From Desulfurobacteriaceae bacterium (lineage in GTDB: Bacteria; Aquificota; Aquificia; Desulfurobacteriales; Desulfurobacteriaceae): 47,339 nucleotides of DNA. The stretch covers positions 1-47,339 of the forward strand of contig JAMORC010000009.1 in assembly GCA_027063785.1 (NCBI GenBank), read 5' to 3'. Position numbers and translations under genes: made by a program. Within the stretch, counting starts at the first letter, position 1. Each line of letters starts with the position of its first letter. Below, piece after piece: positions 4,156 through 32,428 of the stretch. The notes under the pieces were generated by a model. It saw nothing but the letters and a program-made list of their open reading frames with translations. It was not told the origin of the DNA and did no database searches.

Positions 4156-5421
4156 TCATTGACGTCCAGCGATTTCAACTCTTCTTAAGCACTCAAGGTT
4201 CTTTAACTTGATATCCTTCTCCTTCCACATACCTTTAAGAACCTCTTTTTCCTTCTCCCTCAGCTTCTCATCAGCCAAAAGCCTCTTTATATAGCCTTTA
4301 GCCTTTTCGAAGGGGATAGCACCTTCTTTTGAAACCGAAAGAACTTTCAAAACGACAAATCGGCCGTTTCCGAGGTCTGCTACCGTAACATCACCGGGCT
4401 TTAAGCCCTCTCCGAAAACGAGGGCACCTATGACGTCCTTTGGATCCTTGTAGTGAACTCTCGGCCTGACATTAAAGAAACCAAACCTCCTGGCTACATT
4501 ACTCCAGGTCTCTTTTTTAAGAAGGTCTGCCGCCTCCTTGGCCTTCTTCTCACTGCTAAAGTAGAAAGCAACTACTTTTGCCCTTTCTGGCATTTTAAAC
4601 TTGTCTCTGTTTTTCTGATAGTACTTCTTTGCTTCTTCTTCGGTTACGTTTATTCCTTTTTTAAGCTCTTTCCGGAAAAGCCTAATTGCTTTAGTCGCCG
4701 TGTATTCCGTAAGCATCCTCCTGAAGTTTTCATCCTTGTTAAGTCCGGATTCAACGGCTTTCCTGTAGAAGTATTCCCTGAGAAGTTCTTCCTTGGCCTT
4801 TTCTTTAGCCGACTCAACACTACTCTTAACAGGCACCGAAACTTTAAGTCCACAACAAGAAGCGGTAACTTTTTTACCCTTTACCGAAATCTTCACCTTA
4901 TCCAGCACCGACTTGTAAATCCTATCAACGGCTTCATCAAAATGCTTGACCTTTAACTCATTCCTTATAAACTCCCTCTCGGAGGGTGTAAGCTCGGCAT
5001 TCTTCTTTCCCTTCACCAGTTCCCTGAACCTTTTCTCTATCTCCTCCTCGGTCACGGGATCTGCAGTCTCTCTTGCTTTCCTGGAGACGTAAAGTCGGGA
5101 CAGATATTCCTTTTCAAACTCTTCAATCTCACCCCTTATCTGCGGGTAAAGGCCTTTTTTCTTTACGTAAGCTATTACAAGACGTCTGTTAACCATCTTC
5201 TCAAGAAGACTTCTGGGGTGATTCCTGTAGAACTTCCTTGCTTTCTCATTTACAAGTCCGGACGCATACTCGTAGTCGGCTAGGGTAAGTTTAATCCCCT
5301 TACCTTCAGCTAAAACCGTTTCGGGAGTGCAGACCTTCCCGCTTTCAACCCTCTCGGTTTCCTTCCCGCAGGAAAGAAGGAGAGCTATAAACGATACAGC
5401 AACGGCAAAAAACTTTTTCAT
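4156..5421 (-). CDS. Parvulin/SurA-type peptidyl-prolyl isomerase lipoprotein
   Basis: A 421-residue protein. The N-terminus MKKFFAVAVSFIALLLSCG is a lipoprotein signal with lipobox LLLSC, so the mature protein is probably anchored by its Cys. A long Lys/Glu-rich helical chaperone region follows, with two SurA-N-like helices (TLADYEYASG; EEEAKKYYQKNRDKFKMP). A C-terminal PpiC-like domain contains the AKEAADLLKK helix, VIGALVFGEGLKPGDV and the GRFVVLKVLSV strand. The family folds outer-membrane and exported proteins (SurA, PrsA). Start ATG has GGAGG 6 bases upstream. Isomerase activity cannot be judged from the sequence; a chaperone-only role is possible. Confidence 0.8.
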   Translation of the reverse strand: MKKFFAVAVSFIALLLSCGKETERVESGKVCTPETVLAEGKGIKLTLADYEYASGLVNEKARKFYRNHPRSLLEKMVNRRLVIAYVKKKGLYPQIRGEIEEFEKEYLSRLYVSRKARETADPVTEEEIEKRFRELVKGKKNAELTPSEREFIRNELKVKHFDEAVDRIYKSVLDKVKISVKGKKVTASCCGLKVSVPVKSSVESAKEKAKEELLREYFYRKAVESGLNKDENFRRMLTEYTATKAIRLFRKELKKGINVTEEEAKKYYQKNRDKFKMPERAKVVAFYFSSEKKAKEAADLLKKETWSNVARRFGFFNVRPRVHYKDPKDVIGALVFGEGLKPGDVTVADLGNGRFVVLKVLSVSKEGAIPFEKAKGYIKRLLADEKLREKEKEVLKGMWKEKDIKLKNLECLRRVEIAGRQ

Positions 5422-5494: not shown

Positions 5495-8400
5495 TTAGTG
5501 CTTTCTCCTTCTGATACCGAAGAGACCTAAAAAGCCGGAAAGAAGAACTCCGAGGTTCAGGAGACCGGAAGCAGTCGGTTGACCGGACATAGAACAGCCT
5601 CCTCCGCCACCGCCTCCCGCAGCTCTGCCGGAAGCCTGAAGACTCTCTACGCCGGCAGCGCCGAAGTAAATGGGATCAGCAATTTTATCGGGAGACGGGT
5701 CAACATCACCGATAGCCGTGTGGTTGTCAAAATCGTTTCTAATCTTAAGACGGAGTGTCCTGCCGTCAAAACCTAATATCTCGATGCTTCCGTCGGAAAT
5801 CTTATTATCCGGATAAATCTCCTCTATCGAACCCGCTTTCGTTTTCTTATAAAGAACGGGATTTTTGAGTTTATCGGAGAAGGTAACGGTAACTTCAATC
5901 TCTTCAGTCCCGTTGGGAAGATCAACTTTAAAGGAAATTCCTCCCTTAACGGGCATACGCCCGAGTTTGGAAGGAACATCTTTAAGCTCATAAGATTTCA
6001 GGAGTTTAAATTCCTCAACCTTTCCTTCCTCTGCCCTCACGGTTGCAGTCACGCTGACTGCTCCCTTGAGGGACTTTACAAGAGACAAGGCAAGCTCTCC
6101 TTCAATTCCCGCATCTTCCCTAATCGCCCTTGTGTTTACAACAAGCTTCCTTTCGTAGCCGTCAAAGTAAGCCCATCCTTTTTCGATTGCTTCCCGAAGC
6201 GGGATGCTCTGGGGCTTAAACTTCTCCTCGTCAACCTCGTATTTAACTTCCTCACCCTCCGACTTTCTCACCTTGACTATGTCTGCAAAGTTGATGTAGA
6301 GATCCTTAACCGAGATAACGCCGAGGTCGGAGAGGTTAAACTCCAGCTTCTCTATAAGGTGAGAAACGATCATTGGAGTGAAGACGGGTTCTGTTTCCTC
6401 CTCGTGGCTGCCGGCCTCTACGATCTCATCGGCAAGGTGCTCGAGGCCGAGAAGCTCGGGAAGCTCGTTCTTCATCCTGACTATCATAGCCCTCCTGGGC
6501 ATCTCATCATCCTCAAGGGCTTCAACGTGAACCGTCATAGGAATGCCTTCAAACCTCATCTCCCACTCGGAAACCTTTTCCGGAAGGGCAAAGGCCACTC
6601 CGTCAACTCCGCTGCTCTCTACCGGTATCGGAACAAGGTGCCTGTCAACGTCAAGACCGTTTGAGAGGGCATTTACAAGCAGGTCCCCGGCCGTGGTGTA
6701 CATGACTTCAAAAGTCTGATTTCCGTAGGACATAGTTCCGTACTTAGGAGAGCCGCCATCGTTTTCAGGAGAGTTAAAGAAGACCTTAACTGCTTCTTTG
6801 TAAGCTTCCTTAGGAATCTTAATAGGAACGGTGACCACCTTCCTTCCCAGGCCGAAGAACTTAATCCGACCCTGTGAGTCTTTCTCTATAAAACTTGACA
6901 GCCCAGCAAGCTCATCGGCATTGGCCTGAGGAAGCCTTCCATTCTCGGCGTCGTGGCAGGCAGAACAGCTAAGTTTTTCGCCGTTAACCATCTTACCTGC
7001 ACCGAGAGCATATTCTTTAGGAAGAACACCGTGATCAATGCTGAAAGGTGCAACCCAGAGGTAGAAAACGGGTTCGGGGTTTTTAACACCCTCAGCCTTG
7101 AGAACTTCCGTAAGGGCAGCCTTCATGTACTCATACTCTGTATCGGTATCAATCTCGGGCAGGTAATCGCCGTTGTCGTCGCAGATAAACTTACCGAGGA
7201 TTGTCTTAACGCAGACCTTACCGTTTTCAATAAAGTAGGCCGGAACTTTCTTACCTGCAGCCTCAGATTCAACAGCACCGTCCAAAGCCGCTGCCATCTC
7301 ACGGGTGTAAAGGACCTTACCGGTTGACTTGTCGTACCAGGTAACGAGGGTTAACGGGTTGGCAATCCTGTACATAAACTTCTGCCCGCCCGGGCTGTCA
7401 GGTCTGAAGCCGTTGTTGATAATTACCGGAGCCCATCCCCAAGGAAACGTATCTTCCGGAATTTCCCACATTTTGAATTGACTGTTTCCGGTTCTGAGGG
7501 CCGCCTGCCTCGGGTCAAAATCGACCTTGTAAATGGGAACCAGAACATCGCTTCCGTTATCCGTCCTTACTATCGGGAAGGGCTGAGGAGCACCGTAGCC
7601 TGCGATGGGCATGAAGGGTCCAAATCCGGGAGTAAACTGCTCCTTAGGGAGCGGAATTGTAGCGTTATTTTCAAGATCGTAATCCAGAATTCTGTTGTCA
7701 AAGTTGTAAGAATACCCGAGGACGTCATAAAAAGTCCTGAAAGTCCAGTGAGTCTTATAAGGTATGTGGCACACTTCACAGGCAACCTTTTCCATGTGGA
7801 TTGCAGATGTACCGATCTTCCCGAAACGTTCCCTGTGAACTTCAGCCGCCAGCTTCCTCGAACCGTCAAAGTGGCAATCTATACAGGTCTTCAGAGAGGG
7901 GTTGTAGTCAAGGGACTGATCCCAGTGGCCGCCCCAATCGTTACCTTTGAGGAAGTCGTGGTGGATCGGGTGAAGGGCCTTCTCCTCTTCAGACAGCATT
8001 CCCTCACCGTGGCAGGAGAGACAGGTCATTTTTCCGTGGTTTTTATCAAAATGAACATCGTAACCTATCGGAATATCCGATACTGAAGATTCAACAGATA
8101 TGTATTTATTCATCGCCGTTGCATTGCTTTGAATGTCGCTTACAGTAGCAATAACTCCTTCACTATCCTCGCTCTTTCTTGGAACATCGTAAGAGAAAAC
8201 ATCTCCTCTTTTAACAATTTCCGCTGCAAGGCCGAGGGTTCCTTTCCTCGTTACCCAGGCATAAACCTTTTCATCGTTTACCGTTCCGCTTTCGTAAGGT
8301 ATGGCCATATGGCAGTAAGAACAAACGTAACCCCACTCCCTGTCTTTCTCGCCGTGCTTCATAGTTGGGTTGCTATAACTATCTCCATTAAGTTTGCCGG

Positions 8401-9925
8401 AATTTTCAAGGACAGAGTAGGTATATCTATCCTCTTCTCTATTCTCAAGAATCGGCAGAGCCACCTCGCCATTATCGTTAAATTCTCTTTTGTTGTAGTA
8501 AACTTCCGGCTTCCAAATACCGTTTTCCTTCACAAACCTTACGTAAGCGAGGGGAACTCCGTCCCCGTCGGTATCAACACCCATAAGGGAGGCGGTTGAA
8601 ATGTATTTGAAGAAAAACCCGGCAAATGTTCTGTAAACCGTTTCATCGCCGTCTTTAAAAGTTACTGCTCCGCCGTTAACGTAGACTTCTCCTCCGTCAA
8701 GGCCTGCCGTTGCATTTGAGTGTTCAAAGTAAACAGCTCTTGCAACTTCCCTTGTGGCTCCGTTAGCATTATTCGGATAGATAAAAAACCTGCTCCAAGT
8801 TCCGTTATTAGTCTTAATACTGTTAAGTTCGTCATCACTAAGGTTGTAAAGCTTCTTAAGAACTTCTATCGGAACAGAGTAGTAGTAAGCAGAGTCAACC
8901 CGCTCTACCTTTTTACCACCAATCATTTCCCCTACCTTCGGAGGAACCCCGAGGGAAATCACGATCGTTTCGTTATCATCGGCAATCCCCCTAAAGACCA
9001 TAACCCTCGGGTTTGCCGGCATTATCGGACGAAGTTCCACGTTGTTAATCCTAGTCCTCACCGTCTTATCAGAAGCATCCGCGTGGCACATAAAACAGTC
9101 TGTATCGTTAACCCCGGAGCGCTTGAAGTTAAAGACTCCGGGCTTACCTATATATCCGGCACCGACCTCGTACTCCGAGTAAGCGAAAAAGTCGCCGTCA
9201 ATTCCAACTTTACTCACAATGCTGTCATCACGGATAAACCACGTAGAATTCTCAAGGTCGTTAAATGTGTCTTCACCTAACTTCTCTTTAAGCACTTCGT
9301 CCAAAGGTTTTTTCTCCCTTCCAAACTGAGCCGCACCCCCTCCCGCATGGCAGGAATTACAGGTTATGTTCTGGTTAACAGTTCCCATATCGAAGTTAAA
9401 ACCTTTGTAACTACTTTCATCGGCAGGGTTTACCCCATCTACCGCTCCATTGGGAACCGCCGGATCTTTTAAAGGTTTCTTTGCCGCCAACTGGCGGTAG
9501 GACGGGGGTCACCAGCCCCCGTAGTGGGACTTGCTCCTGAAATAGCGCATTTTAAGGACTTTATTTGTAACAAAGTCCTTTGTTCCCGTGTCATCTCCGT
9601 AAGTCTCACGGCTGTCCAGCCAGCCCATGTCGTGAAGGCCCACAGCCCCGTGGTGGGACATCCTGACATCTTCAACGATATTCTCATGACACCCGCTACA
9701 GGTTTTCTCCCAGCTTACCGGATCACCCTTGTAGAGAGTCACAGTGGAGTTATCGTTGGCAACGAGAGTCACATTCTCACTCTCTTTAAGATTTTCACAT
9801 ATGGAGGTTCCGTTAACGCTGATCAGCTCAACACTACGATGAGCGTATCCCTGAGATGCCATAACGGCAGAGAGTATAAAGCCGGTAGTAAGGCTCAGCT
9901 TACTGCGCCTCCACTTCTTTCCCAT
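5495..9925 (-). CDS. Octaheme c-type cytochrome, probable selenoprotein (in-frame UGA)
   Basis: Read through one UGA at 9509-9511, this is a 1476-residue exported protein. ATG 9925 has GGAGGG upstream. A signal peptide (SLTTGFILSAVMASQGYA) is followed by eight CXXCH heme sites: CSGCH before the UGA, then CNSCH, CFMCH, CSYCH, CLSCH, CIDCH, CEVCH and CSACH. A heme-free beta-rich C-terminal region of roughly 400 residues ends in Gly7-Cys-Ser-Met, a hydrophobic helix and IRRRKH, like GlyGly/Cys-CTERM surface-sorting tails. The UGA is codon 139, in the context HYGGW-UGA-PPSYRQLA. The frame is identical on both sides, the only signal peptide lies before the UGA, and no other stop occurs in 1331 codons. 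The downstream piece alone would need a TTG at 9490 with no ribosome site. I infer selenocysteine; the alternative is a nonsense mutation. A role in periplasmic or surface electron transfer is inferred; the partner is unknown. Confidence 0.8.
9484..9522 (-). promoter_or_regulatory. Candidate bacterial SECIS hairpins at the in-frame UGA
   Basis: Two inverted repeats sit at the UGA (9509-9511, minus strand). (1) CCGCC-AGTT-GGCGG at 9484-9497: a 5-bp GC stem whose 4-nt loop occupies nucleotides 17-20 after the UGA and has G at loop position 2. That fits the general bacterial SECIS layout of an apical loop about 16-37 nt downstream with an early loop G. (2) ACGGGGG...CCCCCGT at 9502-9522: a perfect 7-bp stem with the UGA inside its 7-nt loop. 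The two stems do not overlap and could stack. Folding and SelB binding are inferred. Confidence 0.55.
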
Positions 9926-9952
9926 CCTTACCCTCCAGAAGTTTACAAAACA

Positions 9953-32181: not shown

Positions 32182-32228
32182 GAGAGTTTTTCTCCTTTAA
32201 GTTCGTCACTGTTTTGTAAAATAGCGCC

Positions 32229-32428
32229 TGCGCAGGTGAACGGGAAGTCCGGTGAAAGTCCGGCGCTGTCCCCGCAACCGTGAGCAGGCAATAAGAAGGG
32301 ATTAGACCACTGGAGCGAACAGGTTAGCGCCGCCGCTCCGGGAAGGGCTAATCCTATTAAGGCCTGCGAGCCGGGAGACCGGCCTGCGCAAATCCGAAAC
32401 CGCCCTGCGGGGGTTCAGGGCGGGGAGG
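32229..32428 (+). promoter_or_regulatory. Cobalamin riboswitch controlling btuF translation
   Basis: The aptamer is closed by TGCGCAGG (32229-32236) and CCTGCGCA (32383-32390). Hallmarks inside are GTGAACGGGAAGTCCGGTGAA, the B12-box-type core CGCTGTCCCCGCAACCGTGA and GAGCCGGGAGACC. Directly after it, CCGCCCTG (32400-32407) pairs with CAGGGCGG (32416-32423), and the 3' arm covers the first bases of the GGGGAGG ribosome site (32422-32428) of btuF. This suggests that bound cobalamin blocks translation initiation, with no U-tract for termination. Confidence 0.96.

Follow-up and report, generated by a model that had tools for sequence, protein, structure and literature searches.

Putative selenocysteine-containing octaheme cytochromes of Desulfurobacteriaceae, with remote kinship to octaheme tetrathionate reductase and a possible role in sulfur compound reduction

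A 47,339-nucleotide stretch of a Desulfurobacteriaceae genome (GCA_027063785.1, contig JAMORC010000009.1; hereafter the window) contains on its minus strand a gene for a multiheme c-type cytochrome, the reading frame of which is open from the ATG at position 9925 to the stop at 5495 save for one TGA at codon 139 (9511-9509). Positions are those of the window and residues those of the read-through protein, which has 1476 residues and eight CXXCH heme motifs (residues 76, 189, 277, 535, 635, 681, 716 and 987); the UGA, in the context HYGGW-U-PPSYRQLA, falls between hemes 1 and 2. The original prediction, made from the sequence alone, was that the UGA encodes selenocysteine (Sec), the frames 9925-9512 and 9508-5495 being in one phase and split only by this codon, with the sole signal peptide and heme 1 on the upstream side and the seven remaining CXXCH motifs downstream. 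This arrangement was reproduced in the sequence.

Homologues were sought in 136 Aquificota genomes; beyond the phylum, the scope was a contig scan with a single protein, that of the window, together with plasmids. The UGA-containing genes fall into family A (the window gene and 13 others, 64-75% identical), family B (13 genes, about 40%) and family C (nine genes, about 25%), and the source genome has three such paralogues, one of them the window gene. A pattern search with one mismatch allowed found the exact combination of UGA and 15-nucleotide hairpin block, TACCGCCAGTTGGCG, at 36 sites in 17 of the 136 genomes, all of them in genes of families A, B or C; the count of 36 leaves out two duplicate loci, with which there are 38 identical hairpins. 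The pattern had no match in the other 119 Aquificota genomes, and a reversed control pattern had none at all. The internal UGA occurs exactly once, at the same position, in all 13 other family A genes, and likewise in families B and C. At codon 139, where the original prediction had looked to homologues for either cysteine or a UGA with hairpin, the UGA is accompanied by the same hairpin in the 13 family A genes and also in B and C.

The hairpin is CCGCC-AGUU-GGCGG in families A and B, with a stem of five base pairs, and a version with four base pairs in family C. Its loop lies 17-20 nucleotides past the UGA and has a G at the second position, as had been noted from the window sequence. Across families A to C, 29 residue columns are invariant when methionine and tryptophan are excluded, and in a codon alignment the only columns with a single codon are five contiguous ones, those of the hairpin. 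Between the UGA and the hairpin, Pro140, Pro141 and Ser142 are conserved in families A and B with three to four codons each, and this conservation of protein with varying codons indicates that the stretch past the UGA is translated. Among the 1465 TGA triplets on both strands of the window, the one at codon 139 alone is followed by a perfect five-base-pair stem at exactly this placement. The folding energy of the hairpin taken by itself is unremarkable (z = -1.58); what speaks for the hairpin is its conservation.

The original prediction had also allowed for a sequencing error at the TGA. UGA-containing genes of these families were found in the finished chromosomes of two cultured species, Thermovibrio ammonificans HB-1 (1,682,965 bp; families A, B and C) and Desulfurobacterium thermolithotrophum DSM 11699 (1,541,968 bp; families B and C), which excludes read errors.

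The Sec pathway, the presence of which the original prediction had left to be checked, is complete in the source genome. Profile and tRNA searches identified selC (tRNA-Sec, 83 bits, anticodon TCA), SelB (431 bits), SelA (639 bits) and SelD (372 bits), all above curated cut-offs. Of the 22 genomes sampled from the bacterial family, 20 have a SelB above its cut-off; the other two (G018 and G020) are draft assemblies with no SelB above the cut-off, yet they carry UGA-containing cytochrome genes. A published survey reported tRNA-Sec in both T. ammonificans and D. thermolithotrophum (PMC4227106). The selD gene of the source genome (L106, G000:C21:16404-17324) itself contains a UGA (ASGUGAK) followed by a similar hairpin, with a GGUC loop at nucleotides 18-21 that shares the GU of the cytochrome hairpin loop.

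On this comparative evidence, codon 139 is almost certainly decoded as selenocysteine. That the TGA is a real stop, leaving a pseudogene or a pair of genes, or else an error of sequencing or assembly, is barely conceivable. TGA is indeed used as a stop in this genome, and a TTG at 9490 in the downstream frame is conserved in 36 of 36 genes; against this, the UGA is conserved in the same 36 genes with both sides intact, those of the finished chromosomes included, the residues between the UGA and the TTG are conserved as protein while their codons vary synonymously, and a fragment of seven hemes that lacks a signal peptide would have no way to be exported and matured. The original prediction had seen no credible start for the downstream frame, and this holds for all 36 genes: the TTG, which is the first candidate start past the UGA, is inside the hairpin, and no Shine-Dalgarno-like motif precedes it in any of them. 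The reading of UGA as another amino acid, whether by reassignment to tryptophan or by nonsense suppression, would account equally well for a full-length protein, for which readthrough alone is enough, but it is highly improbable. UGA terminates 12 of the 35 main open reading frames of the window as well as the family members L006 and L088, so it has not been reassigned, and the block of frozen codons together with the complete set of Sec genes points to SelB. The features of the gene and its immediate surroundings are collected in Table 1.

Table 1. Features of the predicted Sec cytochrome gene and its downstream neighbour in the window
Feature	Position	Strand	Basis
Family A octaheme cytochrome gene, complete, 1476 residues, UGA as predicted Sec codon 139	5495..9925	-	sequence, homologues
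Ribosome-binding site GGAGGG ahead of ATG 9925	9931..9936	-	sequence
Predicted N-terminal signal peptide, approximately residues 1-28, end ...ASQGYA-H	9842..9925	-	sequence pattern
Heme 1, CSGCH	9686..9700	-	motif
In-frame UGA, predicted Sec, codon 139	9509..9511	-	homologues, pattern search
Hairpin of bacterial selenocysteine insertion sequence (SECIS) type, CCGCC-AGUU-GGCGG, loop at nucleotides 17-20 past UGA	9484..9497	-	conservation, placement
15-nucleotide block TACCGCCAGTTGGCG, identical in 36/36 UGA-containing genes (A, B, C), synonymous sites frozen	9485..9499	-	codon alignment, pattern search
Heme 2, CNSCH; analogy with octaheme tetrathionate reductase (OTR) suggests it as the active-site heme	9347..9361	-	motif
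Heme 3, CFMCH	9083..9097	-	motif
Heme 4, CSYCH	8309..8323	-	motif
Invariant Lys572, aligned with OTR Lys153	8210..8212	-	alignment
Heme 5, CLSCH	8009..8023	-	motif
Heme 6, CIDCH	7871..7885	-	motif
Heme 7, CEVCH	7766..7780	-	motif
Heme 8, CSACH	6953..6967	-	motif
C-terminal sorting-type tail: poly-Gly (seven Gly in this protein), Cys, hydrophobic stretch, RRRKH	5498..5617	-	common to A, B, C, D
PpiC-type peptidyl-prolyl isomerase lipoprotein, immediately following the cytochrome gene	4156..5421	-	Pfam Rotamase_2, 55.7 bits

A fourth family, D, matches the others in its eight hemes, but serine (AGT, TCT or TCA) occupies the Sec column and the hairpin block is absent; the aligned site reads GMYNR(x)SVPHM in family D and GMYGKL-U-PPAYRQ in family C. 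No version with cysteine at the Sec site, a usual but not strictly defining support for a selenoprotein, was found among the homologues of families A to D in the Aquificota sample. Up to heme 8, Sec139 is the sole Cys or Sec column outside the heme motifs that is invariant in families A and B. A tree rooted with OTR-like proteins groups A with B and C with D (support 0.96 for C+D), and by parsimony Sec would have been present in the common ancestor and lost in D. The three Sec families are old in Desulfurobacteriaceae; the smallest proteins are those of family C, at about 90-100 kDa. One family D gene (L096:5401-7524, G015:C19) contains two in-frame TAG codons, one of them at a tryptophan of its relatives, and is either a pseudogene or affected by an assembly error.

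The best curated match of every member scanned is TIGR04315, the OTR family, with 28.9 bits for the window protein and 29.8-63.6 bits for members of families B, C and D. A profile of families C and D has as its best PDB match the OTR of Shewanella oneidensis (1sp3; E 3e-4, in three collinear pieces), and a profile led by family A reaches 1sp3 only at E 0.39, ranked behind other multiheme proteins. With hhalign against two OTR-like proteins, a 35-sequence profile aligned over the heme 1 region only and the C+D profile over hemes 3-7. The columns in common with the OTR-like proteins are the eight hemes, His92, His625, His697, His710, His965 and Lys572, the last of which falls on the lysine of GGGDGVK; in 1sp3, Lys153 is part of this motif. 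As in OTR, eight CXXCH hemes occur in the same order, with the common motifs DVH before heme 5, HxxxxACxxCHIP at heme 7 and (N/D)HxVxPKE before heme 8; unlike OTR, the families have two to three times the length, contain large inserts, carry a sorting tail at the C-terminus and lack the GGGGDxVK motif. In 1sp3 (residues 4-427), the sole cysteine that belongs to no heme motif is Cys64; it is located between hemes 1 and 2, the interval in which the window protein has Sec. We take Lys153 to be the ligand of the active heme 2 of OTR, with Cys64 in the same pocket.

The nearest relatives without Sec in the phylum sample are shorter OTR-like octaheme proteins of a genus of the same bacterial family (g7; L102 and L104) that does not carry families A to D. 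They match TIGR04315 with 197 bits and have the His and Lys columns in common with families A to D, but they differ in their length of about 540 residues, in a cysteine between hemes 1 and 2, and in a C-terminal stretch that is hydrophobic but has no Gly-Cys motif. Taken together, the profile matches and shared columns make families A to D very probable remote members of the OTR superfamily.

The window gene thus probably encodes an exported Sec octaheme c-type cytochrome of the OTR superfamily, decoded by SelB, tRNA-Sec and a SECIS element. In the proposed mechanism, UGA 139 would be decoded by SelB and tRNA-Sec with the aid of the SECIS hairpin just downstream; the protein would be exported, loaded with eight hemes and anchored outside the cytoplasmic membrane by its Gly-Cys tail; electrons would pass from heme to heme as far as an active one, by analogy heme 2, with an invariant lysine as its ligand; and the adjacent selenolate would attack polysulfide, thiosulfate, tetrathionate or a similar compound at an S-S or S-O bond. 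We propose that these proteins may be extracytoplasmic enzymes that reduce sulfur compounds and have Sec at their active heme, although sulfur compounds as the substrate can be put forward only tentatively. To our knowledge, the splitting of S-S bonds by a selenolate at an active heme has not been described for any cytochrome.

In favour of the proposed function, the hosts are reducers of sulfur or thiosulfate. The route of sulfur and thiosulfate reduction in D. thermolithotrophum HR11 is stated to be unknown, the usual reductases being absent and c-type cytochromes having been proposed to participate (PMC12724263), and for T. ammonificans the pathway by which sulfur is reduced is described as unclear (PMC5441870). 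It is a speculative and somewhat unlikely extension that the terminal reductases for sulfur or thiosulfate in Desulfurobacteriaceae are these Sec octaheme proteins, anchored at the surface, with a selenolate at the active heme that splits S-S bonds.

Several points weigh against the reading of these proteins as OTR-related reductases of sulfur compounds. Every member stays below the 375 bits that are the cut-off of TIGR04315, the Sec column and Cys64 of OTR do not align residue by residue, so that their equivalence is only topological, and family D keeps the lysine and the hemes yet has serine, which makes Sec dispensable for some function. At the loci examined, no conserved gene neighbour indicates a substrate, and selenite, tellurite or nitrite may be the substrate instead of sulfur compounds. 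AlphaFold2 models are of too low a quality to show whether Sec is close to a heme, with a mean predicted local distance difference test score of 51.7 for the window protein and 62.0 for a family C protein and scores below 50 in the Sec region; a Foldseek search of the PDB with these low-confidence models returned nothing below E 1 and was discarded.

The original prediction offered a heme ligand or a nucleophile as possible roles for Sec, and of the two the topology favours the nucleophile, as Sec lies in the interval between the first two hemes that in OTR holds Cys64. It would be rather improbable that Sec is instead an axial ligand, bound as selenolate to heme iron in a cytochrome of electron transfer. 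The Sec column is invariant in families A and B, and only six conserved His columns were found outside the heme motifs (H92, H625, H656, H697, H710 and H965), which leaves one or two of the eight hemes in need of a different ligand; but the invariant lysines K572 and K660 can fill this gap, K572 being the one aligned with OTR Lys153, and in family D the same heme set is combined with serine, a poor heme ligand. Somewhat unlikely, too, is a function in the reduction of selenite or tellurite, or in electron transfer to minerals or other extracellular acceptors, in place of sulfur compounds. Such a function is suggested by the Geobacter cytochrome ExtKL, which has been tied to selenite reduction (PMC5877670), and by the position of family B in D. 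thermolithotrophum next to a multiheme cluster that is probably its porin-cytochrome cluster (PMC4245776). No match to ExtKL is detectable, however, and the adjacency to the cluster is not conserved, family B being without multiheme neighbours in T. ammonificans and the five other genomes examined.

Sec in multiheme cytochromes is precedented. ExtKL (GSU2937-2936, NF040886) is, like the window protein, a multiheme c-type cytochrome with an in-frame UGA (PMC1914089, PMC5877670), but it has five hemes in its N-terminal part and belongs to the ext gene cluster, whereas the window protein has eight hemes and the neighbours alaS and PpiC; the window protein gave no match to the NF040886 profile up to E 0.1. 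A table line of a 2026 review (PMC13188914) gives WP_331457571.1 as a "tetrathionate reductase family octaheme c-type cytochrome" with one Sec. This protein, known from GenBank annotation only, resembles that of the window as an octaheme cytochrome annotated with one Sec, but the table line places it under TIGR04315, below the cut-off of which the window protein falls far. An assignment to the MtrC/OmcA decaheme cytochromes does not fit a protein with eight hemes, for which the match to PF22113 is only local and at threshold (30.1 bits).

No paper describing Sec cytochromes of Desulfurobacteriaceae was found in the open-access literature. What is new is that there are three old paralogues with Sec, together with their size and tail, the sister family with serine, and the link to hosts with unknown sulfur reductases. 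Sec multiheme cytochromes are rare, the literature found comprising ExtKL and the one-line OTR annotation, and most sampled species of this heat-loving vent lineage keep these families with the UGA. Annotation pipelines that are blind to UGA recoding would label such genes as broken or truncated. The families also provide a natural series of Sec, Ser and possibly Cys (in the OTR-like relatives) for one heme active site, and because hosts with sulfur and thiosulfate reductases reported as unknown can be cultured, the hypothesis is directly testable.

The tail of poly-Gly, Cys-Ser, a hydrophobic stretch and a basic end was located in the window (5498-5617) and at L085:4200-4382, G000:C41:21415-22002, G021:C7:81081-81410 and G016:C6:82076-82378. 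Compared with curated sorting domains, it scored above no cut-off, the MYXO-CTERM and LPXTG models matching only below threshold, and it may be a CTERM sorting signal of Desulfurobacteriaceae that has yet to be described. In a search for a rhombosortase that might act on it, the only candidate was below the cut-off (G000:C7:4496-4933; 36 bits against 84), and all control genomes matched too.

The window gene lies between alaS upstream and, on the same strand downstream, the gene of the PpiC-type isomerase lipoprotein. A PpiC gene follows every examined family A gene whose contig extends that far (L046, L047, L048, L049, L051, L053 and L054), and the lipoprotein is possibly a dedicated folding factor for the Sec cytochrome. 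Beside the family B gene of D. thermolithotrophum, on the opposite strand, is an operon for several multiheme proteins (L125:10685-19902 and L092:1-8046; G001:C1, approximately 336-346 kb); one of its products has 1025 residues and 28 CXXCH motifs, and another is cytochrome b561-like. A place for family B in a conserved cluster for extracellular electron transfer was considered and rejected, these neighbours being absent from the six other genomes examined. Elsewhere in the window, a cobalamin riboswitch was identified on the plus strand (32217-32401; 93.5 bits).

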